Source: Nitrospiraceae bacterium
Lineage (GTDB): Bacteria; Nitrospirota; Nitrospiria; Nitrospirales; Nitrospiraceae
Reading direction: 5' to 3'
DNA length: 64,000 bases
Assembly: GCA_019637075.1 (NCBI GenBank)
Contig: JAHBWI010000001.1
Location: 682,001-746,000, forward strand
Both the position numbers and the translations under genes were made by a program. Within the stretch, counting starts at the first letter, position 1. Every line of letters starts with the position of its first letter. The notes under the pieces were generated by a model. That model saw only the letters and a program-made list of their open reading frames with translations. It did not search any database and had not been told where the DNA came from. Below, piece after piece: positions 30,696 through 43,822 of this stretch.

Positions 30696-31382
30696 ATGTC
30701 GGCACACGACACCAAAGTAGATTCAGTCCCGCGCAAGACCGCTCGATACGCGTTGGCATGTTGTGCGAGCCTCGCGTTGTTGATGACTCTCACATCCCCG
30801 GCCTCGGCTGGCCGTTCGCTTTCCGTGCCGATTTCCACGGCAACCCCGGCCGACGAGTCGCAGGGGTTTCCGATGTTCACTATGAAATGGGACGAGGGTT
30901 CGCAGCCCGACCCTCTCAGCCTGCGGTGGGGCCGAAGCCAAGTGCCCGTTCGCGGCGCAGGCATGGCGGCGATCCCGGAGGCGTTTCGCTTTGCCTTAGA
31001 CCGGCTCGCTCCAACGATCCGACCGACCGGCATCCTGTCGCTCTACGCCAACTTTACGGGACCATCACGCGGGGAAGAGTCCGACGCCAGCGTCGCCTTG
31101 GCGGTCGGCTTTCTGGCGATATTGAAGGGAGACCGTCTCCTGCAGGATGTCACTGTGACCGGCACACTGACTCCGTCCGGAGAAATCGGCCCAGTCACGC
31201 AGGTCGCTGAAAAGGCCAAAGCCGCGGCCCGGGCCGGATACCGCATGCTGCTGGTTCCTCGCGGTCAATTCTATGCCCCGCGAGTGAACTTGGCCTATCT
31301 GAGGAGCGAATCCAAATTGCTCGTCTACGAAGTTGGAACCATCGACGAAGCGTATGAACTCATGACGGGCAAGAAACTCTGA
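30696..31382 (+). CDS. Exported Lon-type (S16) protease-domain protein
   Basis: 228 residues. A signal peptide (ACCASLALLMTLTSPASA) precedes a stand-alone Lon proteolytic domain: the segment SDASVALAVGFLAIL aligns with the catalytic-Ser helix, and TGTLTPSGEIGPVTQVAEKA then KAAARAGYRMLLVP with the catalytic-Lys helix of Lon. No AAA+ domain is present. The usual GPSAG context of the Ser reads GPSRGEESDAS here, so an insertion interrupts it and activity needs testing. It faces the CHAT operon, the two stops being 24 nt apart. Confidence 0.78.
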   Translation: MSAHDTKVDSVPRKTARYALACCASLALLMTLTSPASAGRSLSVPISTATPADESQGFPMFTMKWDEGSQPDPLSLRWGRSQVPVRGAGMAAIPEAFRFALDRLAPTIRPTGILSLYANFTGPSRGEESDASVALAVGFLAILKGDRLLQDVTVTGTLTPSGEIGPVTQVAEKAKAAARAGYRMLLVPRGQFYAPRVNLAYLRSESKLLVYEVGTIDEAYELMTGKKL

Positions 31383-31406: not shown

Positions 31407-33860
31407 TTACATCCAATTGCTGATCAGAATGAAGGGCGCCCAATAACTCGGGTGCTCGCGCCCGAGTTCCACCATCATCTTTTGTTGCGCCCGTTGAAGG
31501 GCTGCGGCCTTGGTGATGCTGGGATCCCGCATCTGCCGATAAAACTCCGCGACGAGTTCGGACATCGCCGGATCATCCCGATACCAGAGACTGGCTAAAG
31601 CGCTCCGCGCGCCGGCCTTCACCGCAAGCCCCGTGAGTCCGAGCGCCGCCCGATCGTCGGCAACGGGAGTCTCCGTTGCACTGAGGGTAAGCAACTCGAC
31701 CGGTGTCTGCCTGTGGCGGAGCAGTCCGACCGACTGCGACAATCGATCCATCGACATCTTCTCGTCATGGGCCACGACATAGGAGCTTGCAGCCTCTCCC
31801 TCGATCACGCCCCGCGATGCGATGTGGATGATCCCCACATTCTGCTCTTTGAGTTCCCGTTCCACCGCAGGCAACACGAACTGGGTATCCATGAGGAGCC
31901 GACCTCCATAGAGCGCCCTGATAGCCTGAACCTCCGTCGCGACATGCGGTAATCCGGAAAATCCCTGCACCGGTTCCGTCAATCCCATCGACAGCAGCTG
32001 GCTCCTCGCACGATCCGCGGGGCGCGCATCGGTCAATTCCATGCTCGGTGTCACCGCCACGGCGAACGTATCGACAAGGAAATGGCGACCATCATGGAGC
32101 GCGGCAAACGGAATCGTTCGCAGCGGTCCATCGGGCACGACGATCAGGGTCGTCACCCCCATCGCAAGAAAGTCGCGCTGCAACGGCGCAACGAGCCATT
32201 TATACAGCGACTGAGCCGACCCCAGGTATCCCTGCGAACGCCGATCCTGCACGAGTTTCCGGAACGTCCTGGCTTCCTGAGTCAACCGCTCGGCCTCGAC
32301 CGGCACGCCGTAGCGTCTGAGTCCACCCGATGTCTGTACCACCAACTCTAGTCGATCTTGCAGCATGATCGGATACAGCACGGCCGTATTGACGGGCAAT
32401 GCCTGACCACGCTGCGCCACCCGCACCTTGGAGACGCAATCATCGCGGAAGTAGTCCTGCAGTTCCGCGACGTGCGAGGCTTCCACCGCATCGCGCACTT
32501 GGACCAACCACTCCTGGGTCTGTTCCGTCGATTGAGCAGTGGCTGCGCGACGAAGCAAGGTATCCTCGACTTCCGTGAAGAACGGAGCCACCGTCTGACG
32601 GAACGAATGATGCCGCCCTTGGTAACCGACAGAATACTCGTAACGGATGGGCTTGAGTGCTCCCATCGCCCGTTGATAGGCGGCAATAGCCTCATCGTCC
32701 TTCCCGCCGGCCTTTAGCAGCCGTGCGGTCTGCCACTGCCAGAGGTAGAGCGATTCCGGGGCATTGACTTTCTGCGCCGCCAAACTGGCTTTCCGCGTAA
32801 AATCCAGCGCCTCACCATACCGGCGCTCCCGTTCCAACAAGGAGCCCATGTAGCCCCAGGCAAAGGACTGGGCCCGTGCGTCGCCGAGTTTCGTTGCCAC
32901 CTGCGCCGCTGCGACAAAGGAGTCCGAGGCATGCCGGAGCAATGTGGCCGTGGCGGGCTTATAGGCCGCCGCTGCCGCCGCCTTCGCGGAGGTCTTCTTG
33001 GCATCTTCCGACGAGGCGGCCTTGCGGAACGAACCGCCGGAACGGAGATCGTCGTACCCGAGGCCGATGTTTAAGAGCCCATACGATTTCGCGTAACTGT
33101 CCTCAAGGCCCCGCACCTCTTTTGCCGCCGCATCCAACGCCCGCTCCGACTCCGCAAATTGCTGGTCGTCAAGCAGCGCCATCGCGAGATTGACTTGGGC
33201 CGTCGCAGCCAAGGTGGCTTGTCGGGTTTGGCCAGCGAGTGCCTTGCTCTCCGAGTACACGTCGATCGCCTCGGCCATCTGATCCTGAGCCACCAGCACA
33301 TTGCCGAGGTCGTTCAGCAACGTCGCCTGCAAAGCCGGTTTCTTTTCCTCGCGCGCCAGCGACAGCGCTTTGGTCAGTTGATCGGCTGCCTGCGCACCCT
33401 GACCGAGCGAATGGAACGAGACGCCGAGACGGCCGAGAATCGTGGCTGTGAGCGTCCGGTCACCGACCCGTTCAGAGATCTGCAAGGCGTGCTGTAACGT
33501 CTCTTGCACGCGCTTGACCTGCCCTTCCTGTTGAAGAGCGTGGGCCAAATTGATCAGGGCCTGGGCTTGCTCACGCGCCTTCCCTTCGGCTTCATACAGC
33601 CGCGCGGCCTGGGTCCAGTGCACGGCGGCTTCGCCAAACGCACCGTCGGCAAACCGGCGCTTGCCCTGCTGCATTTCTTGAACGGCACCAGCCGGTTCCG
33701 GCAAGCCACTCGCGTCTGCGAACACTTCTGCAGAGGCCAATAGAACCAGCGCGCAGCAGCCAGTCATGACCAATGTGCGAACAGGCCTGTCGGCAACGTT
33801 TCCAGCACTCGCCCCCGACATGCTCCGCCGTCCCTGCATCATGGATACATTGGAGTCCAT
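31407..33860 (-). CDS. Exported TPR-CHAT protein, catalytic dyad lost
   Basis: 817 residues from ATG 33860 (GGAGGGG 4-5 nt upstream). The frame is open beyond it but runs antisense to homology inside the preceding gene. Signal peptide/anchor (LVMTGCCALVLLASAEVFA), then TPR repeats (about 55-330), then a CHAT caspase-like domain (about 560-817). The two catalytic positions are replaced: HIASRG has Arg683 (CGG) for the active His, and LSATET has Thr729 (ACG) for the active Cys. It should therefore be a pseudoprotease. Last gene of the ShlB-TPS-CHAT operon; the paralog at 37500 keeps both residues. Confidence 0.88.
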   Translation of the reverse strand: MDSNVSMMQGRRSMSGASAGNVADRPVRTLVMTGCCALVLLASAEVFADASGLPEPAGAVQEMQQGKRRFADGAFGEAAVHWTQAARLYEAEGKAREQAQALINLAHALQQEGQVKRVQETLQHALQISERVGDRTLTATILGRLGVSFHSLGQGAQAADQLTKALSLAREEKKPALQATLLNDLGNVLVAQDQMAEAIDVYSESKALAGQTRQATLAATAQVNLAMALLDDQQFAESERALDAAAKEVRGLEDSYAKSYGLLNIGLGYDDLRSGGSFRKAASSEDAKKTSAKAAAAAAYKPATATLLRHASDSFVAAAQVATKLGDARAQSFAWGYMGSLLERERRYGEALDFTRKASLAAQKVNAPESLYLWQWQTARLLKAGGKDDEAIAAYQRAMGALKPIRYEYSVGYQGRHHSFRQTVAPFFTEVEDTLLRRAATAQSTEQTQEWLVQVRDAVEASHVAELQDYFRDDCVSKVRVAQRGQALPVNTAVLYPIMLQDRLELVVQTSGGLRRYGVPVEAERLTQEARTFRKLVQDRRSQGYLGSAQSLYKWLVAPLQRDFLAMGVTTLIVVPDGPLRTIPFAALHDGRHFLVDTFAVAVTPSMELTDARPADRARSQLLSMGLTEPVQGFSGLPHVATEVQAIRALYGGRLLMDTQFVLPAVERELKEQNVGIIHIASRGVIEGEAASSYVVAHDEKMSMDRLSQSVGLLRHRQTPVELLTLSATETPVADDRAALGLTGLAVKAGARSALASLWYRDDPAMSELVAEFYRQMRDPSITKAAALQRAQQKMMVELGREHPSYWAPFILISNWM

Positions 33861-33871
33861 CGTCCCCTCCC

Positions 33872-35167
33872 TCATGATCGGCACGCTCCCGTCAGGTCGT
33901 GCTGGTTCAGTGCGGGCGGCAACGCCGGTTGAGCCGGCGCCCCCGCCACCTCGAGGGCACGATCCAGGCTGCTCGACTGAGCCCCGGCCTCTTCCAGCAC
34001 GGCAGGACTCGACAAGGCGGAGCCTGGCTGCGGCGGGGCCACCTCCCGCGACGACTGGACGAAACTGCTCGCCTGCCCGAACCGATTCGCCGCGCAAGGG
34101 TCGGAGTTTTTTGCCAAGGACTGCGGTCCAAACACCGTGGCAGCCGTCTGAACGTTCTGTTGCAGAAGCTGCGCGGACTCCTGATTGAATTGGAGCACCT
34201 GAGCAGCGGCAAAGGGATTGATTTCGAACACACTGCTTGGAGCCCCGAATACGTCGGTCGGAAAAGTACCACCACCGCTGACCGAGACACGGATCAATCC
34301 GCCGCTCTGGTTCGTGGTGTTTGAAACCGACGCGCCTTGAGGAATGGTCAGGGTCGAGGGAAAGAGCTGGATCGCTGTGATCCCTGACTGGGCCAAGGCC
34401 GGCGTTACTTCGATGACCGTACCGGTCGTAGCCTGAATGCTTCCTGGAGTCCCGGAAACGCCGGCTCCGCTCGACGGCAGCGCCGCTTCCCCGATCGAGC
34501 CGAGGCTCCGCAAAACCGGCGTGGCAGCCGTGAGGTGCGCAGCTTCGAGTCTGATCGGTCCGCCGGCGATCATGAGCACACCGTTCGGCGCCGAGATCGT
34601 TGAGCCTTGAATCGCAACCGGAGCAGGTGCGCCGCCTCCGCTGAATCCGAAAGCCGTGGGGGCGGCGGAACTGAAGGAAAACACGCTGGAAGGCGAGGTC
34701 GAGAATACCGCGTTGTCTGAGAAACGCAGGGACGTGGCAGTGGTAATGTAGATGGAGGCGCTCGTGTTGATGCTGCCGGATGGACCGATCAGCACACCCG
34801 CTGGATTCATCAGGAACAGACTCATTCCGTTCATGACCACGGTGCCGTTGATGTTCGAAATATTTCCACCCGTGACGCGGGCGATCGCGTTCAGCACTCC
34901 TCCGGGATTGACAAACGAGACGCTTTGGCCGGCTCCGACGTCGAAGGATTGAAAACTGTGGAAGAGGTTGGCGCCGCTGTTCGGGCGAAACCCGCCGGTG
35001 ATGAGGCTTTGCGAACCATTGTGCGTGACAGTGGTGCCCAGAGAGCCGTCGGCGACGGGCGCCGTGAGTGCTTGAGCAGAGACCATCGAAGCCATACTGC
35101 ACAGCATCGCAAGCGAGAGGCCCAGGCACTTCGTCAGGTGGCCCCCTCCAGGGTGTCCGATATTCAT
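33872..35167 (-). CDS. Short two-partner-secretion exoprotein (haemagglutinin N-domain)
   Basis: 431 residues from ATG 35167 (AGGAGGAGG just upstream). The signal peptide ends VSAQA. The TPS/haemagglutination-activity domain contains ANLFHSFQSFDVGAGQSVSF, NINGTVVMNGMSLFLMNPAG and VLIGPSGSINTSAS. A short beta-helix and a tail with CAANRFGQASSFVQSSREVA follow. Such passengers are usually thousands of residues; this one is very short. The tail resembles that of cyanobacterial CHAT-linked TPS proteins (from memory). It should be exported through the ShlB-type transporter encoded just upstream. Confidence 0.88.
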   Translation of the reverse strand: MNIGHPGGGHLTKCLGLSLAMLCSMASMVSAQALTAPVADGSLGTTVTHNGSQSLITGGFRPNSGANLFHSFQSFDVGAGQSVSFVNPGGVLNAIARVTGGNISNINGTVVMNGMSLFLMNPAGVLIGPSGSINTSASIYITTATSLRFSDNAVFSTSPSSVFSFSSAAPTAFGFSGGGAPAPVAIQGSTISAPNGVLMIAGGPIRLEAAHLTAATPVLRSLGSIGEAALPSSGAGVSGTPGSIQATTGTVIEVTPALAQSGITAIQLFPSTLTIPQGASVSNTTNQSGGLIRVSVSGGGTFPTDVFGAPSSVFEINPFAAAQVLQFNQESAQLLQQNVQTAATVFGPQSLAKNSDPCAANRFGQASSFVQSSREVAPPQPGSALSSPAVLEEAGAQSSSLDRALEVAGAPAQPALPPALNQHDLTGACRS

Positions 35168-35324
35168 ACCCCTCCTCCTTTCCGTCGATCCCGGCAAGCG
35201 TCCAGTCTCTTTACTCCTTTCCGCACGGAGGAGCAAGAGCATCGATGTGCCACAAAGCCGCTCCAGTCGGCGCTTCGCGGGAAATCCTCCGAGAGCCATT
35301 CGAACGGAATTCTATGCGGCGTCA

Positions 35325-37121
35325 TCAAAACGCCTCGACGACCAACTGCAGATGCACCCCATGGTCTTGGAGGTTGCCGCGGTGCGTGTCGAAATTGTTG
35401 AGTTGCTTGCCCCAGTAGAGCTCGAACCGACTGTTTTTCCAAAAGTTCCACACGGTGCCGAGCCCGAGACTTGACAGCGTCTTCGGGGGACTCGTGGGTG
35501 TGGGCACCGTGGTATCCCAACCCCGCCCGATGTCGAAAAACGGCACCAGAAAGAGTGTGTCGACACCGGCTTTGCTCGTATAGACCGGTACCCTCCACTC
35601 GATGGAACCGATCGCGGCGTTGTCGCGAATCAAGGTGTATTCCCGATAACCGCGAACACTGTAGCGTCCTCCGACCGCCATCTGTTCCAGGGGAAAGAGG
35701 TGGTCGTTGGAAAGTTGCACCAGCCCGCGAGCAAACAATTGCGATCGCCACAAGGGCAACTGACGGAGATACTGGGCTTCACCCAACCAGGAAAAGAACC
35801 GCGCATCCGGTCTGTTGGGATCGCCGTTCGCTGTGGCATCCAGAATCCCTACGCCGACGGAGAATCTGGACAGCAGCGAGAGCACTTGCTCGGAAGACCG
35901 TTGCGTATATTCCTGGCCGAACCGCAGGGCCGTGACCTTGAACTTGCCGTTTGGCGAACCGAGCACCAATTCCTGCGGTTGCCCGCCGAGAAAGCTTTCG
36001 TTCTGCTCATGCTCCGCGGTCAAGCTCATGGCGAACTCGCGATCAACGCGGCGATACATCGGCTGGCGGACGGAGATCCCGAAAATTTGGGCCTTGTTTT
36101 CGATATCGAGCACGTCGAAGGGGCTCTCCTTCACGGCGAAATTGAACCGGCGATACTGCACCGCCACCGTCGTGTCGTACCGATTCACGGGCACTGCGTA
36201 GCGAAAGTTCAAGATCGGGTTGACGCCGGCGGATCGTCCATACTGCAGACTTAACTGATCGCCGAAACCGAAGAGATTCTGGTGGGCCAACGTGATGAAG
36301 CCCTGTTCCGCCCCGACCACAGGAGATTGAAAGTTGTTGAACTCCAGCCAGACCTTGAGCGGATTGGCCTCGGTCACCCGCACATTCAACAGACTATCGC
36401 CTCGCCCCAATCCAGGCTGCAATTCGGCATTCAACCGCTGAACGCGAGGGTCAGCCTGCAACAACTGCAAACGTTCCTGGAGAGTGTTCACATTGAGAGG
36501 AGGCCCCACCGCCGTTTCGATCCGGCTTCGGAAATAGGACGGCCGAAACCAATTCGTGCCTTCAATGTTGATGTCTGTCAGCTTCCCTTCGATGATGTGG
36601 ACGGTCAACACGCCGTCGGACACCGATTGGTCAGGGATGATCGCACCGGACGTGACATACCCGTGATTCGTGTAGTAGTAGGTCAAGGCCAGTCGCAGCG
36701 CTTCCAGATCTTCCGCAGTCAGTTCCCGATCTACAAACGGAGCAGTGACACCAGCCAATTGTGACGAGGTAAATGCCGTGTTGCCGGTGACCTGAATACC
36801 TTTGACGAGAATTTTCGGAGCTGTGATGGGCACGCCGGATGAAATCGGAGGACGAGGCGCCGGCGTTTCGAGCGGGGCCGGTTGCACCGGCGGCGGCGCA
36901 TCAGGCACCTGCGGTGGCTTCGGAGGCAGCGGCACGAACTGCGCAAGTGCCGGGGATACCAGGCCGCCGAACAGCAGCACGCCCGCGGCCATGCACAGCA
37001 ACCGACCGAACGAGCTTCCACGTAACGGCACTGAGCGGCTCATGTCGTGCGAACTCTTCCCCATGCGCGCCGCACCTGCTGCCCTGCTCTCACCCATCTC
37101 AAATGTTACCCACTCACTCAC
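35325..37121 (-). CDS. ShlB/FhaC-type outer-membrane TPS transporter
   Basis: 598 residues from GTG 37121; AGGAGG lies 7 nt before it but only 1 nt before the ATG two codons upstream. Signal peptide, Pro-rich linker (VPLPPKPPQVPDAPPP), then POTRA_2 (ILVKGIQVTGNTAF, VLTVHIIEGKLTDINIEG) and a 16-strand barrel with the conserved VRGY motif (GRYSVRGYRE). It exports the haemagglutinin-type protein encoded next. First gene of the operon, with the promoter at 37276-37303. Confidence 0.93.
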   Translation of the reverse strand: MSEWVTFEMGESRAAGAARMGKSSHDMSRSVPLRGSSFGRLLCMAAGVLLFGGLVSPALAQFVPLPPKPPQVPDAPPPVQPAPLETPAPRPPISSGVPITAPKILVKGIQVTGNTAFTSSQLAGVTAPFVDRELTAEDLEALRLALTYYYTNHGYVTSGAIIPDQSVSDGVLTVHIIEGKLTDINIEGTNWFRPSYFRSRIETAVGPPLNVNTLQERLQLLQADPRVQRLNAELQPGLGRGDSLLNVRVTEANPLKVWLEFNNFQSPVVGAEQGFITLAHQNLFGFGDQLSLQYGRSAGVNPILNFRYAVPVNRYDTTVAVQYRRFNFAVKESPFDVLDIENKAQIFGISVRQPMYRRVDREFAMSLTAEHEQNESFLGGQPQELVLGSPNGKFKVTALRFGQEYTQRSSEQVLSLLSRFSVGVGILDATANGDPNRPDARFFSWLGEAQYLRQLPLWRSQLFARGLVQLSNDHLFPLEQMAVGGRYSVRGYREYTLIRDNAAIGSIEWRVPVYTSKAGVDTLFLVPFFDIGRGWDTTVPTPTSPPKTLSSLGLGTVWNFWKNSRFELYWGKQLNNFDTHRGNLQDHGVHLQLVVEAF

Positions 37122-37275
37122 GCGCATGCCTCCTTCCCGCTCCGAACGGCCGCTATGATTCGAATGCGTTTGTCACGCCGACAGCCATCCGAGCTCCGAG
37201 ACAGGCAATCCGAGGTGGGATGTATCCCGACAGTGGACCGTCCGGATGTGTGAAACGACGGCGGCGAAAAAGTTG

Positions 37276-37303
37276 CTTATAACATGTCAGGATTCAAAAT
37301 ACT
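37276..37303 (-). promoter_or_regulatory. Promoter of TPS-CHAT operon 1
   Basis: Minus strand: AGTATT (37303-37298), 16 nt, extended -10 TGTTATAAG with core 37281-37276. The same arrangement, with GACATG directly before the -10, lies upstream of operon 2 (43421-43448). The leader to the transporter gene is about 145 nt. The rest of 37122-37499 contains no gene. Confidence 0.5.
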
Positions 37304-37421
37304 GCTATTGATTTTGGTCTGGGACAGGCCGACGCATCGAAAAGATGGGCTAAGAAAAACAGAGTGCTGCAGTCTTGAGGAATGTTTGGGGCGACGCCAG
37401 AGAAAGGGGTGCGCCGTTGAT

Positions 37422-37462
37422 ACCGTCCTCAAGCCATCACGATTCAAAAGCCCGAGGACGGT
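37422..37462 (-). terminator. Possible terminator after TPS-CHAT operon 2
   Basis: A 9-bp perfect stem ACCGTCCTC/GAGGACGGT with a 23-nt loop begins 38 nt past the CHAT stop at 37500. No T-run; moderate support. Confidence 0.35.
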
Positions 37463-37499
37463 TCATCAGCGAGCTCGGCTGCCTTGCGCAGCCGTGGGA

Positions 37500-39971
37500 T
37501 CAACGCCAGTCGTTGATCAACAACAACGGTGCCCAAAAGCCTGGGTGCTCATGGCCTGGTTGGGACAATATTTTCTGCTGTGCCCGTTGCAACGCAACGG
37601 CCTTGCCGACGCCGGCTGTTTGCAACTGACGGTAAAACTCCCCCACGAGTTCCGTCGTCGATTGGGGATCTCCCGGCCACAGGCTCGCCACTGCGCTCCG
37701 GGATCCGGTCTTGACTGCCACGCCCGACAAGCCCAAGGCCGCACGGTCATCCTCGATCGCGGTCTCGCAGGCGCTGAGGGTCAACAACTCCAGCGGCTCC
37801 CGGCGATACTGCATCATCCCAACCATCTGCGCCAACCGATCCATGGAAATCTTTTCATCATAGGCCAACACGAACGACGAAGCGGCGTCATGACCGATTT
37901 CGCTGTGGGAGGCCACGTGCACGATGCCGATCCGTTCATCCTTGATGTTTTGTTCGAACGACGGCGCTGAGAACTGCGTATCCATCAACATCGTCCCCCC
38001 GTACAGGGTACGGACAGCTTGCGCCTCGGACGCGGCGGTCGGGGTTGCAGGGAACCCCTGCACCGATTCGCTGATCCCTGTGGTCAGCACCCCTCCCTTG
38101 CCTCGCGCCATTGTGCTGAGGTCCGTCAGCTCCATTCCCGGCACCATCGCCACCGCATACTTGTCGATGACAAACTGCCGCCCATCGTGGAGGGCCGCCA
38201 TGGGGATCGTCCGTAGCGCGCCATCCGGAACCATCACGAGCGTCGTAATACCGCCGGCCAGCAAATCCTGGTGGATTGGGGCAACCAGCCATCCGTACAA
38301 ATTCTGGGCCGAGGCAAGGTAGGCCTTGGAACCGGGATTTTGCACCAACCGCCGGAAGGTCCTGGCTTCCTTGGTCACGGCTTCGGCTCCGACCGGCACA
38401 CGAATTTGCTTCAAGCCGGCGGCCGTCTCAACGAGCAGCTCCAAGCGATCAGGCAATGCGATTGGGTACACCACCGCAGCGTTGGCGGGAATTCTCCCAC
38501 TTTTACGCAGGGCTCGAGCCGCCGTCACGCAATCGTCCTGGAAATAATCCTGTAACTCAGCGGCGTGGGAAGCTTCCACGGTGTCCCGAACTTGGGCAAG
38601 AAGCTGCTGCGCTTGATCGGAAGATCCAGCGACCGAGGCGCGTTGCAGCAAGGAGTCCTCGATCTCGAGGAACAAGGGCGCCACCGAGGTGTAGAACGAG
38701 TGATGTCGCCCCTGTGCGCCCACCGAGTACTCATACCGTATCGGTTTCAACACCGACAGGGCGCGCTGGTAGGCAGCCGCCGCTTCGTCCTCTTTCCCAC
38801 TCGCCTTCAACAGTCTGGCCGTCTGCCACTGCCATCGGTACAACGCCTCCGGCGCCGACACTCTCTGTGCCGCCAAGACGGCTTTCCTGGTCTGATCGAG
38901 CGCCTCCGCCGTTTGTTTCTGTCGTTCGAGCAACCCACCCATCAGCCCGTAGGCATAGGACTGCCCCCGTGCATCTCCCACCTTCGCTGCCGCCTCACCT
39001 GCGGCGGCATAGGCCTCCGACGCGCGCTGGAGCAATGAACTTCCCGCCGTGGTCCCGACGGCTGGTCCCGTTGGTGACGCGACCTTTGCCGCATTGCCCG
39101 AAGACTTACCGCGTGTCGCAGCCGCCACTGAGGCAGCCTGGAGTTCCTGATACCCCGTCCCGATCGCCAGCAACCCATTCACCTTCGTTCCACTGTTCGC
39201 CAACAGCTGCGCCGCGCCCCACGCTTCCTCCAAATGGCGCTGCGCCTGGGTGAGTTGCCCGTCCTGAATCAATACGGTGGCTTCATTGACCTGCGCGATG
39301 ACGCCCAGCGGCGGATTCTTGACTTCTTTCGCCAATCCTCGGCTTTCTTCATACACGTCCACGGCTTCGGGGAACTGCTGCCTCGCGGCCAGCACGTTGC
39401 CCAAGTCGTTCAACAAGCTGGCCACCAACGAAGAATTGCGTTCTTCGCGTGCCAGGGCCAAAGCCTTCGTGAGGTGCTCTGCCGCCACAACTTCCTTGCC
39501 CATGGCATGAGATGCAGTGCCCAGTTGTCCGAGAATCGTGGCCGTCAACCCGCGATTGCCGATCTGCTCGGACAGCTTCAGCGCCTGCTGCAATGTCAGC
39601 TGTGCCCGACGAATCTGGCCCTCTTGGCGAAAGGCGTGCGCCAGGTTGATCAACGCCTGACACTGTTCCTTCGGCTGTCCTGCCTGCTCATACAGCTGTG
39701 CCGCATTCATCCAATGGACGCCCGCCTGCGCATAGGCCCCCTGCTGAAAGCGCGCCGTCCCTGCGGCACTCTGACCGGCCGCATCCCCGGCCGGTTCGTT
39801 CGCGGGTTGCGCCGTTGCGGGACCTTGCAAGAAAAGCAGCCCGAACAACAATCCCGCGCCGAAAATGCTCCACCGTGTGCGTCCCCACACCCGGCGGTTT
39901 CTCCCTTCAGGCAAGCCGGCCCACCCTCTGCCAATCCGAACTCCACGCTGTGCTCGTCGTCTCAGCATCAT
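37500..39971 (-). CDS. Exported TPR-CHAT protease, catalytic dyad intact
   Basis: 823 residues. Signal peptide/anchor (FGAGLLFGLLFLQGPATAQ), TPR region (about 60-340), then a CHAT domain (about 565-823). The caspase-type dyad is present: His689 in HVASHSE (codon CAC) and Cys735 in LTLSACETA (codon TGC). It is therefore a candidate cysteine protease of clan CD located outside the cytoplasm. GGGAGGGG precedes the ATGATG start, 15 nt after the TPS gene. It is collinear with the inactive paralog at 31407-33860 over its length. Confidence 0.9.
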   Translation of the reverse strand: MMLRRRAQRGVRIGRGWAGLPEGRNRRVWGRTRWSIFGAGLLFGLLFLQGPATAQPANEPAGDAAGQSAAGTARFQQGAYAQAGVHWMNAAQLYEQAGQPKEQCQALINLAHAFRQEGQIRRAQLTLQQALKLSEQIGNRGLTATILGQLGTASHAMGKEVVAAEHLTKALALAREERNSSLVASLLNDLGNVLAARQQFPEAVDVYEESRGLAKEVKNPPLGVIAQVNEATVLIQDGQLTQAQRHLEEAWGAAQLLANSGTKVNGLLAIGTGYQELQAASVAAATRGKSSGNAAKVASPTGPAVGTTAGSSLLQRASEAYAAAGEAAAKVGDARGQSYAYGLMGGLLERQKQTAEALDQTRKAVLAAQRVSAPEALYRWQWQTARLLKASGKEDEAAAAYQRALSVLKPIRYEYSVGAQGRHHSFYTSVAPLFLEIEDSLLQRASVAGSSDQAQQLLAQVRDTVEASHAAELQDYFQDDCVTAARALRKSGRIPANAAVVYPIALPDRLELLVETAAGLKQIRVPVGAEAVTKEARTFRRLVQNPGSKAYLASAQNLYGWLVAPIHQDLLAGGITTLVMVPDGALRTIPMAALHDGRQFVIDKYAVAMVPGMELTDLSTMARGKGGVLTTGISESVQGFPATPTAASEAQAVRTLYGGTMLMDTQFSAPSFEQNIKDERIGIVHVASHSEIGHDAASSFVLAYDEKISMDRLAQMVGMMQYRREPLELLTLSACETAIEDDRAALGLSGVAVKTGSRSAVASLWPGDPQSTTELVGEFYRQLQTAGVGKAVALQRAQQKILSQPGHEHPGFWAPLLLINDWR

Positions 39972-39986
39972 TCCCCTCCCGGCTTT

Positions 39987-41273
39987 CTAGCAGCCTTGCC
40001 AGATTTCAACAGCGTGACCGGCAGCGCGTTGCGGAACTTGCACAATCCGCGGATACGCGGGTGCCGCCTGTGCGGACGCGCCGATTTGCTCCAGCATGAC
40101 CGGACTCGCCAAGGTCCCGCCCGGCTCGGCTGGTGTTGCATCCCTGCCGGACTGGACGAAGGTGCTGAACTCACCATCTTTTCTCGATGCACATCGACTG
40201 GTGACTAAAGCCACCGGTGCGTCCGGCGACTGGACCGGCATGACGATCGCCGCGCGATTGAGGAACTGGACCGGATCCACGGGATTCGAGAGCACCACCG
40301 TCGCCGACGTCGTAGCCGAAGCCACGGGCAGAGGAGGCAACCCTCCGGACTGGCCCACCACACTGATTTGAGTGATCTGTTGTGTCACCGGGTTTACCGT
40401 TGTATTCGTCTGTGCGCCGCTTGGAACCGTTAGGTTCCCGGGGAACAGATCGATCGACGCGGGAATCACTCCACCTCCGCCTGCTTGGAGGAATGTGCCG
40501 GAGGAAACCTGGACCTGACCGCCTTGGGAAATGCGTACAAAAGGATTCGACACCGTCGGCTCGACGCTGACATTGCCGCCGGCTGCCGCGTTACTCGCGA
40601 GCACGATGCGTTGAGCCGTAATCCGCCCCCCGTCGATTTGGACGGTCCCGCCGATCAAACCAATCACGGCATTACCTTGAAGCGAAGCACCGGGCGAGAG
40701 CGCGACGGGCCCGTACGGACCGGACCCCAAAAACCCGAAGGAAATCGGTGTGGCCGTTGAGAGCGTGTTGTCGAACCCGAAGGTGCTGGTCGTGAACACC
40801 CGCTGGTCACTGAACTGCACGATATGCGCAGAGCTGAAATAGGCCGATCCCGTAATGTTCAGATTCGCGTTGGGCCCAAAGATGACCCCCGAGGGATTGA
40901 TGAAGAATAGGTTGGCGTTCAGCGCCTGGATTGTCCCATTGATGTTGGACGGAGACCCACCGATCACCCGGCTGATGATGTTCGACACACCGCCGGGATT
41001 GACGAACGCCGCCGTGTTCCCCGCGCCGACCGAAAACTGGTTGAAGCTATGAAACAGGTTCGGGCCGTTTCCTGGTCTGGTGCCGCCGGTGATACTCACC
41101 GTGCTACCGGACGAATTCACGGTGGTGCCGAGTCCGCCAGTCCCCAAGGCACCGGGCGTCGGCACAATGTTGGTAGCCTGCCCCCAACAGGGTCCTGCTT
41201 GTACGAGCCAGAGGGCGCACAGCGCGCCGAGGCTCCGCACCAGCGCCTGCTGCACGGTCGAGGTCCTGTTCAT
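39987..41273 (-). CDS. Short two-partner-secretion exoprotein, second copy
   Basis: 428 residues from ATG 41273 (AAGGAG 8 nt upstream). The signal peptide ends CWGQA. The TPS domain has PNLFHSFNQFSVGAGNTAAF, SPSNINGTIQALNANLFFIN and GVIFGPNANLNITGSAYFSS. After a short helix comes the tail motif RCASRKDGEFSTFVQSGRDA, parallel to CAANRFGQASSFVQSSREVA in copy 1. Secretion through the transporter at 41385-43193 is expected. Two cysteines at most remain in the mature part. Confidence 0.88.
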   Translation of the reverse strand: MNRTSTVQQALVRSLGALCALWLVQAGPCWGQATNIVPTPGALGTGGLGTTVNSSGSTVSITGGTRPGNGPNLFHSFNQFSVGAGNTAAFVNPGGVSNIISRVIGGSPSNINGTIQALNANLFFINPSGVIFGPNANLNITGSAYFSSAHIVQFSDQRVFTTSTFGFDNTLSTATPISFGFLGSGPYGPVALSPGASLQGNAVIGLIGGTVQIDGGRITAQRIVLASNAAAGGNVSVEPTVSNPFVRISQGGQVQVSSGTFLQAGGGGVIPASIDLFPGNLTVPSGAQTNTTVNPVTQQITQISVVGQSGGLPPLPVASATTSATVVLSNPVDPVQFLNRAAIVMPVQSPDAPVALVTSRCASRKDGEFSTFVQSGRDATPAEPGGTLASPVMLEQIGASAQAAPAYPRIVQVPQRAAGHAVEIWQGC

Positions 41274-41384
41274 AATCTCACTCCTTGTCAGAAAGGGGTC
41301 GCGCGGCCCCTCTCTTACGCTTCTGCACAAGTAAGATCAAGGCACACGAAAGTATATTAGGAGTCTTGCTAGAGCCGATCCGGC

Positions 41385-43193
41385 TCAGAAGGCCTCCACG
41401 ACCAGTTGCAGGTGGACGCCGTGGTCCTGCAGATTGCCCCGCTCTGTGTCGAATTTCTTAAGTTGTTTTCCCCAATACACCTCGAAATGACTTCCCCGCC
41501 AGAAATTCCAAATCGCTCCGATACCGACACTGGCTAAGGTCTTCGGAGGCGAATCGGGGGTTTGCACGGTCGTCTGCCAACCATGCCCCACGTCCACAAA
41601 CGGAGCCAGGAACACAGAATCGACCCCAGCCTTGTTCGTATAGACCGGCACGCGCGCCTCGATGGACCCCATGGCGGCATTATCGCGAATCAACGTGAAT
41701 TCCCGATATCCACGCACGCTATACCGTCCACCGACCGCCATCTGCTCCAACGGAAACAGGTGGTCGTTTGAAAGCTGCACGACCCCGCGGCTTACGAGCT
41801 GAGTACGCATGAACGGCAACAGGCGAATCCATTGCGCCTCGCCCAACCAGGAGAAGAATCTGGCATCCGGCACTTCGGCGCTGCCGTTGGCCGTGGCACC
41901 CAATGCACCGACTCCGACGGAAAACCGGGACAAAGCCGTAATGACCTGCTCCGCCGACCTCTGGGCATACTCCTGTCCGAATCGCAGCGCCGTCACCCGG
42001 AATTTCCCGCCGCTGGTTCCAGCGGACAGATCCGCCGGCGTCCCGGCGAGGGTCGTTTCATTCCGCTCATGCTCGCCGGTCAACGAGAGTGCGAACTCCC
42101 GGTCGACCGCGCGGTAGACAGGATGCCGGACGGTCAGCCCGAGGATTTGGGCCTTATTCTTGATATCCAACACGTCGAATGGGGACTCTTTCACCGCAAA
42201 ATCAAACCGCCGGTATTGAATCGCCACAGTGGTATCCTGCGGCGTGACGGGAACCTCATACCGGAAATTCAGGATGGGGTTGACGCCGGACGACCGGCCA
42301 TACTGTAAACTCAGCGTATCGCCGAATCCCAGCAGGTTTTGGTGAGCCAACGTCACAAATCCCTGTTCCGCGCCAACGACCGGCGATTGATAGTTATTGA
42401 ATTCCAGCCAGGCCTTCAAAGGATTCGCTTCCTTGACCTTCACGTTCAATGTGCTTTCGCCCAGCGCCATTCCGGGAAGAAGTTCGGCATTGATACGCTC
42501 GATCCGGGGATTCGCCTGCATGAGCTGTAGCCGATCCTGCAAGCGAACGACATTGAGCGGCGGTCCCGCCGCTTGATTGATACGGCTCTGAAAATAAGCC
42601 GCCCGGAACCAGTTGGCTCCTTCGACATTCACTTCACCCAGTTTGCCCTCGACGACCTGGAGCTTCACCACCCCATCGACGACATCCTGCTCAGGAATCA
42701 CCGCTCCGGAGGTCAGATAACCATGGTCGACGTAGAAGCGAGTGAGGCTCAGCCGTAACGACTCGAGATCGTCGGCAGTCAATTCCCGGTTGCGATAGGG
42801 ATTCGTTACCTCGGCCAGTTCCCCGGCAGTGAACGCGGTGCTCCCGACCACCTGAATATCCCTGACGAGAATCTTCGCTCCGGTCAGGGGCACACCAGAC
42901 GGAGCCGGGGGTTGGGGGGCGGGAGGTTCGAGGGCCGGAGGCTGAACCGGAGGCGGAGCCTCAGGAAACTGCGGCGGCTTGGGCGGAAGCGGCGCGAACT
43001 GAGCCAAGGCCGTTCCGTATGACACGCCGAAGGCCAGTAGCCCGCCCATCAGGCAGACATAGGCACTCGTCATGTTCCTGCGACCGAGCAACCGGGGTTT
43101 GCAATCGCCTTTCCGTTCCTGCAGACTTCCGCACTGCAGATTCGAACTCCTCTCGGAACGGATGTCTCGAATTCTCATCTCCTGCCACGCCAT
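41385..43193 (-). CDS. ShlB/FhaC-type outer-membrane TPS transporter, second copy
   Basis: 602 residues from ATG 43193 (GGAGGGG 5 nt upstream; the TTG one codon earlier is not needed). Layout as in copy 1: signal peptide, Pro-rich linker (APLPPKPPQFPEAPPPVQPP), POTRA_2 (ILVRDIQVVGSTAF, GVVKLQVVEGKLGEVNVEG) and a barrel with GRYSVRGYRE. Strong similarity to copy 1 over the whole length (for example GKFRVTALRFGQEYAQRSAE against GKFKVTALRFGQEYTQRSSE) shows tandem duplication. Confidence 0.93.
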   Translation of the reverse strand: MAWQEMRIRDIRSERSSNLQCGSLQERKGDCKPRLLGRRNMTSAYVCLMGGLLAFGVSYGTALAQFAPLPPKPPQFPEAPPPVQPPALEPPAPQPPAPSGVPLTGAKILVRDIQVVGSTAFTAGELAEVTNPYRNRELTADDLESLRLSLTRFYVDHGYLTSGAVIPEQDVVDGVVKLQVVEGKLGEVNVEGANWFRAAYFQSRINQAAGPPLNVVRLQDRLQLMQANPRIERINAELLPGMALGESTLNVKVKEANPLKAWLEFNNYQSPVVGAEQGFVTLAHQNLLGFGDTLSLQYGRSSGVNPILNFRYEVPVTPQDTTVAIQYRRFDFAVKESPFDVLDIKNKAQILGLTVRHPVYRAVDREFALSLTGEHERNETTLAGTPADLSAGTSGGKFRVTALRFGQEYAQRSAEQVITALSRFSVGVGALGATANGSAEVPDARFFSWLGEAQWIRLLPFMRTQLVSRGVVQLSNDHLFPLEQMAVGGRYSVRGYREFTLIRDNAAMGSIEARVPVYTNKAGVDSVFLAPFVDVGHGWQTTVQTPDSPPKTLASVGIGAIWNFWRGSHFEVYWGKQLKKFDTERGNLQDHGVHLQLVVEAF

Positions 43194-43420
43194 CAAGTCC
43201 CCTCCCTCTCACTCATTGGCGGTCACCGAATCTTCGGCGAACCATGTCCGTTTCACATGCACCGTGAAGTCCCGCCGCGGCAAGATATCGCTCCGGCGCA
43301 TTGGGAAAGACGGCACGCGTCCGCGGCCCTCTTGAAACAGAACCATCGAACCGGCTCATCAGGTGCGCAGGTTCGTCACTACGTATCTCTTATTGGAGAG
43401 CAAGCAAAGCGAGGGGACTG

Positions 43421-43448
43421 CTTATAGCATGTCTAGAGAAAAAATACT
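43421..43448 (-). promoter_or_regulatory. Promoter of TPS-CHAT operon 2
   Basis: Minus strand: AGTATT (43448-43443), 16 nt, extended -10 TGCTATAAG with core 43426-43421. It matches the operon 1 promoter in spacing and in the shared GACATG before the -10. The leader is about 220 nt. Bases 43194-43420 hold no gene. Confidence 0.5.
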
Positions 43449-43746: not shown

Positions 43747-43822
43747 GGCGGTGTAGCTCAGTTGGTAGAGCAGCGGACTCATAAGCCGCGGGTCACCCGT
43801 TCAATCCGGGTCACCGCCACCA
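43747..43822 (+). tRNA. tRNA-Met (anticodon CAT)
   Basis: A complete 76-nt cloverleaf. The acceptor stem is GGCGGTG/CACCGCC, the D arm GCTC..GAGC, the anticodon loop CTCATAA and the T arm ACCCG-TTCAATC-CGGGT, and CCA is encoded. The last anticodon-stem pair is an A-G mismatch. CAT could also denote a lysidine-modified Ile tRNA, but the acceptor and D-arm pattern fits elongator Met. Confidence 0.93.

Follow-up and report, generated by a model that had tools for sequence, protein, structure and literature searches.

In the two-partner (type Vb) secretion systems HMW1A/HMW1B and HxuA/HxuB of Haemophilus influenzae, a TpsB transporter with POTRA and barrel regions is paired with a TpsA passenger carrying a TPS domain and an NPxG motif. 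A C-terminal disulfide region of HMW1 and HxuA is held in the periplasm, where it serves as an anchor (PMC5422565). In Bordetella, a periplasmic protease is reported to degrade the C-terminal prodomain of FhaB in a regulated manner (PMC8263021). In a different setting, Csx29 of Craspase (type III-E CRISPR) consists of a TPR solenoid followed by a caspase-like CHAT domain. To our knowledge, CHAT proteins mostly lack an assigned role outside Craspase and HetF. A 64,000-nt stretch (hereafter the window) of contig JAHBWI010000001.1 of a Nitrospiraceae bacterium, related to the nitrifier Nitrospira, was found to carry both kinds of protein side by side, in six minus-strand genes (31407-43193) that form two collinear three-gene sets, A then B in transcription order. 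Type Vb secretion is in itself a familiar type of machinery; at this locus it is joined by an under-described third partner, a TPR-CHAT protein, one copy of which has clearly lost catalysis although selection continues. A search of the open-access literature, most subscription papers lying outside it, gave no description of a TPS-CHAT system.

A preliminary description of the window had proposed that the six genes encode a ShlB transporter, a passenger of about 430 residues and a TPR-CHAT protein, twice over, and this was borne out by Pfam, with passengers of 428 and 431 aa. Both passengers carry a TPS domain above the Pfam cut-off together with NPSG/NPAG motifs, and in both sets the adjoining gene encodes a protein with ShlB and POTRA_2 above cut-off. 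On gene content, each set is a type Vb secretion unit, and TpsB-dependent secretion is predicted. Both CHAT proteins consist of TPR_12 and CHAT by Pfam; here the third gene differs from that of HMW1, which encodes the HMW1C glycosyltransferase. A signal peptide on the CHAT proteins, also part of the preliminary description, agrees with the signal-peptide-like N-termini found in all six proteins by a simple heuristic rule, which was also positive in 14/42 control open reading frames (ORFs) and so lends weak support. Between sets A and B the amino acid identity is 71% for ShlB, 56% for CHAT and 37% for the passenger, thus the exporter has been held while the cargo is diverging. Elsewhere in the genome there is a third protein with a CHAT domain, but neither another TPS protein nor another ShlB of this kind.

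The AlphaFold2 (AF2) model of TPS-A displays a TPS beta-helix (residues ~33-308) followed by 120 disordered residues. Foldseek matched the fold with the TPS domains of HpmA, HxuA, EtpA and HMW1, while the closest solved sequences are EtpA, HMW1 and HxuA. Neither a recognisable adhesin fibre nor a toxin domain was found in TPS-A, for which Pfam yields the TPS domain only. Passengers of the family range from 430 to 2000 aa in length, and nearly all of them terminate in a conserved two-cysteine tail with the consensus RCAA...SSF....R(D/E)..P..PG..L.SP...GC at or near the C-terminus, and this C-terminus is the most conserved part of the passenger rather than a polymorphic one. Exactly two cysteines occur in the last 130 residues of 83/93 distinct passengers, both window copies included; in 78 passengers the last cysteine lies at most 6 residues from the C-terminus, and 67 passengers have no other cysteine from the TPS core onward. 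When a profile of the tail was compared with full TPR-CHAT matches across 148 genomes, 71 had both and 71 had neither, with 3 exceptions each way, and the co-occurrence held within patchy genera too. The conserved cysteines are shared with the periplasmic disulfide anchor described for HMW1 and HxuA (PMC5422565). By analogy, the Cys pair points to an anchor of the HMW1/HxuA type, with a putative disulfide holding the tail in the pore. As a separate observation, one complete-looking 4.7 Mb relative has a two-Cys tail (G012:C1:863552-863836) with no full TPR-CHAT match.

CHAT-A retains His689 and Cys735, the dyad expected of a CHAT protease, and catalysis is predicted for it. In CHAT-B both residues are replaced (H→R, C→T), a change overlooked in the preliminary description. 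With Arg and Thr in place of the dyad, copy B is a CHAT-fold protein and not a CHAT protease. Sequencing error is unlikely, since the two codons are 2 (CAC→CGG) and 3 (TGC→ACG) bases away from those of copy A. The earlier suggestion that CHAT may process the passenger could hold for copy A only, because copy B lacks both catalytic residues. CHAT-B is predicted to fold well (AF2 predicted local distance difference test score 81), and its best folds in the PDB are the TPR-CHAT protein Csx29/Craspase and separase. Csx29, the top fold match, shares the order of TPR solenoid and CHAT domain. It differs in that the window proteins are predicted to be exported, are linked to TPS and not to Cas7-11, share ~10-13% identity with it and, in CHAT-B, lack the dyad. 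The Craspase partners cas7-11 and csx30 were not seen among the neighbours examined (TPS, ShlB, Lon_C-like, SDR, NUDIX and histidine kinase genes).

Further, independent dyad losses all belong to the short-passenger group and come from Nitrospira genomes: His is replaced by Arg in G079 and by Gln in G051/G082 and, separately, in G065, and Cys is replaced by Ser in G042. Counting CHAT-B there are five events, and losses affect 6/32 short-passenger CHATs vs 0/51 others (Fisher p 0.002, in a test that ignores relatedness). All five events fall on 17.6% of the tree length (p = 1.7e-4), assuming that events are proportional to branch length and for a group that had been noticed beforehand. The ratio of nonsynonymous to synonymous substitution rates (dN/dS) was 0.073 between two CHATs that are both dead and 0.04-0.10 in other pairs, in dead and intact lineages alike; purifying selection is thus strong, and the CHAT protein is being kept despite the loss of its dyad. 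Preservation of the dead CHAT-B suggests that such helpers can be retained for binding, not cutting. Erosion around the active site extends beyond the dyad: at 150 positions invariant in the CHATs of long and mid passengers, short-type CHATs have 15-24 changes, many of them near the active site (G690S/T, G740E, A734S, T737I and the 637-644 loop), and even where the dyad is intact, as in CHAT-A with G690S and G740E. The mid copy of Candidatus Nitrospira defluvii has 1/150 changed, and CHAT-B 12/150, with its full 817-aa frame kept. One His-lost short-type CHAT (L158/L182, on G082:C35) is also split by a frameshift; another dead copy in the same assembly, on C28, is whole.

The preliminary description had treated the two sets as a tandem duplication. 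The tandem layout stands, and a recent duplication in this lineage was ruled out for CHAT, as CHAT-A and CHAT-B as sisters were rejected by the approximately unbiased (AU) test (p = 4.4e-5). The CHAT tree places copy A inside the clade of the single-copy short-type Nitrospira set and copy B outside it, the latter sharing 67-69% identity with the second N. defluvii-type set (passenger ~811 aa) and 53-56% with copy A. N. defluvii, a cultured relative, has both this 811-aa set and one of the short type whose dyad is intact. Different origins of the two copies, a result that would count against the preliminary description, are supported for CHAT; the ShlB tree has the same topology with weaker statistics (A+B sister test p = 0.088, not significant), and the TPS tree has the same tendency (p = 0.074, not significant alone). 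Copies A and B are old paralogues. Ancestrally the sets may have stood in tandem and been split afterwards, or the present layout may be due to a later insertion. The flank downstream of copy B shares synteny with the Nitrospira short-type locus, including a convergent exported Lon-like gene, SDR, NUDIX and histidine kinase genes and more, and both sets were seen adjacent in the window genome only.

Relatives of CHAT-A occur across the family and the order. Among 106 distinct CHAT loci, ShlB and/or TPS adjoin CHAT in most, in several gene orders and in opposite orientations. The order ShlB-TPS-CHAT with short passengers is that of Nitrospira, while elsewhere the genes are ordered TPS-ShlB-CHAT or arranged divergently and the passengers have ~850-2000 aa. 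Among the named carriers of the set are Candidatus Nitrospira defluvii (FP929003), Thioploca, Parabeggiatoa, Desulfobacula and Betaproteobacteria. In cyanobacteria, linkage was seen on plasmids of Pseudanabaena ABRG5-3, Planktothrix agardhii and Anabaena cylindrica, the last with TPS and CHAT only, in agreement with the preliminary description. The linkage that it expected in relatives was likewise found, and, given the Nitrospirota and cyanobacterial loci, the three families are not generally unlinked. Its view that occurrence outside cyanobacteria is unusual did not hold: the set is common in Nitrospirota, present in the other groups named above and linked in cyanobacteria, and hence not rare. 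The cyanobacterial loci resemble the window in their adjoining families, intact dyad and two-Cys passenger tails, and differ in passengers of ~1230-1310 aa and in additional CHASE2 and DUF928 genes; minimal passengers and dyad loss were not found among the three seen. Two or more tandem passengers share one ShlB and one CHAT at loci L058, L060, L070, L183, L184 and L088. Some Parabeggiatoa contigs (L156, L162) have a single ORF to which the CHAT profile and the TPS profile both match, which points to CHAT/TPS fusions.

A block GTATTTT...GACATGnTATAAGC is kept upstream of copies A and B. The promoter-like element listed in Table 1 has just two exact copies in this genome, one per operon, and lies upstream of ShlB in 12/12 sampled short-type Nitrospira loci as well, one of which reads GACGTG; a test of four other loci (L048, L049, L120, L047) did not reveal it in their upstream regions. 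A wider regulon was rejected, as exact copies in ten genomes are confined to these operons.

The reading that we favour, with a probability of about 0.5, is that of an HMW1/HxuA-type unit with a periplasmic CHAT protein acting on the anchored tail, in which an ancestral releasing protease became a non-cutting binder in the short-passenger group. ShlB, the TpsB component, would thread the passenger out with its N-terminus first, the TPS domain would fold on the cell surface, and the two-Cys tail would be retained at the periplasmic side, anchoring the passenger. Handling of this tail would be the dedicated task of the exported TPR-CHAT protein, with its TPR solenoid binding the tail and its CHAT domain, where active, cutting it for release or maturation of the passenger. 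In the short-passenger lineage cutting would be in the course of being given up, the active-site surroundings having drifted group-wide and the dyad having been lost at least 5 times; CHAT in that lineage would most likely be a non-catalytic tail binder for retention, gating or chaperoning. The window organism holds a dyad-intact A and a dead B side by side, each behind its own copy of the promoter element. What the sequence itself shows, and the model builds on, is the gene sets and their linkage, the conserved tail, the lost dyad, purifying selection and the shared promoter-like element. From the conserved tail, its co-occurrence with CHAT and the periplasmic anchor of HMW1 and HxuA, we infer a CHAT protein located in the periplasm and acting on the anchored tail, and with it tail binding, ancestral cleavage and retention. 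Handling of a passenger C-terminus in the periplasm recalls FhaB/FhaC (PMC8263021). The difference is that TPS-A is closest in sequence to the HMW1/HxuA/EtpA branch. FhaB is also huge, and its proteases are not known to share its operon. More tentatively, and with some doubt, these loci may form a large undescribed two-partner class whose obligate third partner is a periplasmic TPR-CHAT protein that recognises the two-Cys anchor tail; in one lineage the protease would repeatedly have become a binding-only pseudoprotease, with the passenger cut to little beyond its secretion domain and release replaced by permanent display. The two-Cys tail provides a defined candidate substrate region for a large family of exported TPR-CHAT proteins, one genome holds natural versions of one system that are predicted active and dead, and repeated dyad loss under purifying selection allows a direct test of whether CHAT proteins also act non-proteolytically.

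Several points weigh against the favoured reading, beginning with the assumptions already attached to the two tests of dyad loss. An independent-pairs test of short passenger against dyad loss had too few pairs and low power, and several loss events come from metagenome assemblies only. Some tails lack the Arg, KS standing there in the L057 clade, so no common cleavage site was found in the tail. Unlike HMW1 and HxuA, the window passengers have almost nothing beyond TPS domain and tail, and the cysteines lie ~65-100 residues apart. The Cys pair of HMW1 forms a short loop, and with the wider spacing here the anchor may differ from that of HMW1. The co-occurrence of tail and CHAT may merely mirror gain and loss of the entire locus. 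Separately, a universal Arg cleavage site (G-R-D) was ruled out, Arg being missing from some clades with intact CHAT, and the residue preceding the tail Arg gave no clear signal when set against dyad state.

It is somewhat unlikely that CHAT acts on another envelope protein and that its linkage to the passenger reflects co-transfer of a surface island. Cyanobacterial neighbourhoods that also hold CHASE2 and DUF928, some CHAT relatives that stand alone, and the Nitrospirota loci L059, L071, L080 and L081, where CHAT has no TPS or ShlB within ~8 kb, would fit such a substrate, whereas linkage conserved through many gene orders and opposite orientations and the near-perfect co-occurrence of tail and CHAT by genome argue for the passenger. 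What a dead CHAT does is a further matter. CHAT-B might be a decoy or inhibitor, a dead paralogue pairing with CHAT-A or competing for its substrate, as dead caspase homologues act in animals. In the window, dead and intact copies do stand side by side behind near-identical promoter elements, and every genome with a dead short-type CHAT has at least one other TPR-CHAT paralogue, while ten/ten single-copy genomes are dyad-intact. This association is, however, not significant (Fisher p 0.07 with the window, 0.13 without it) and is confounded by redundancy; moreover, the Nitrospira dead copy is alone in an operon with its own passenger, its paralogues being at other loci with different passengers, and CHAT-A itself shows active-site drift, all of which makes an inhibitor improbable. 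The same confinement of losses to genomes with another CHAT would also follow from relaxed constraint after redundancy, with dead CHATs on their way out and having no distinct role, and the frameshifted copy of G082 is in keeping with it. Given the low dN/dS of dead lineages, that of the both-dead pair included, and the intact frame and modest number of changed invariant positions of CHAT-B, simple decay is equally improbable. Among polymorphic toxins, release of secreted toxins by caspase-like peptidases is known, as is their delivery by type V systems (PMC3482391), and a contact-dependent inhibition or polymorphic toxin system would bring together such parts; yet Pfam detects no C-terminal toxin domain, the passenger C-terminus is conserved and not polymorphic, and no immunity-like gene lies between or directly after the operons, so that this reading is very improbable.

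Table 1 Features of the two gene sets and their flanks (positions in the window).
Feature	Position	Strand	Description	Basis
Operon-A promoter-like element GACATGCTATAAGC	43420..43433 (G000:C1:725420-725433)	-	upstream of ShlB-A	
ShlB-A	41385..43193	-	602 aa TpsB transporter: signal peptide, POTRA_2, barrel	Pfam ShlB 2.1e-31, POTRA_2 6.5e-23; PDB sequence relatives CdiB, FhaC
TPS-A	39987..41273	-	428 aa minimal passenger: signal peptide, TPS beta-helix ~33-308, disordered two-Cys tail 309-428 ending ...WQGC	Pfam TPS 8.3e-34; AF2 model; Foldseek
CHAT-A	37500..39971	-	823 aa predicted exported TPR-CHAT protein; dyad His689 (37907-37905) and Cys735 (37769-37767) present	Pfam CHAT 3.2e-50; codons CAC/TGC
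Operon-B promoter-like element GACATGTTATAAGC	37275..37288 (G000:C1:719275-719288)	-	upstream of ShlB-B	
ShlB-B	35325..37127	-	600 aa TpsB transporter	Pfam ShlB 1.7e-29, POTRA_2 2e-21
TPS-B	33872..35167	-	431 aa minimal passenger, two-Cys tail	Pfam TPS 1.7e-34; Cys at positions 74 and 3 counted from C-terminus
CHAT-B	31407..33860	-	817 aa predicted exported TPR-CHAT pseudoprotease; His→Arg683 (CGG 31814-31812), Cys→Thr729 (ACG 31676-31674)	Pfam CHAT 5.7e-49
Lon_C-like gene	30696..31382	+	exported AAA-less Lon_C (S16)-like protein, convergent with operon B	
tRNA-Met (CAT)	43747..43822	+	directly upstream of operon A, divergent	

A further in-frame ATG of CHAT-B is present at 33875, overlapping the stop of TPS-B. 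The tRNA-Met gene is absent from the Nitrospira short-type loci scanned. Almost every Nitrospira short-type locus has the Lon_C-like gene in this position behind CHAT, and genome G148 has two, one after each CHAT type. The Lon_C-like product varies (D, T or G) in the region where Lon carries its nucleophile Ser, so this protein, too, may be non-catalytic.

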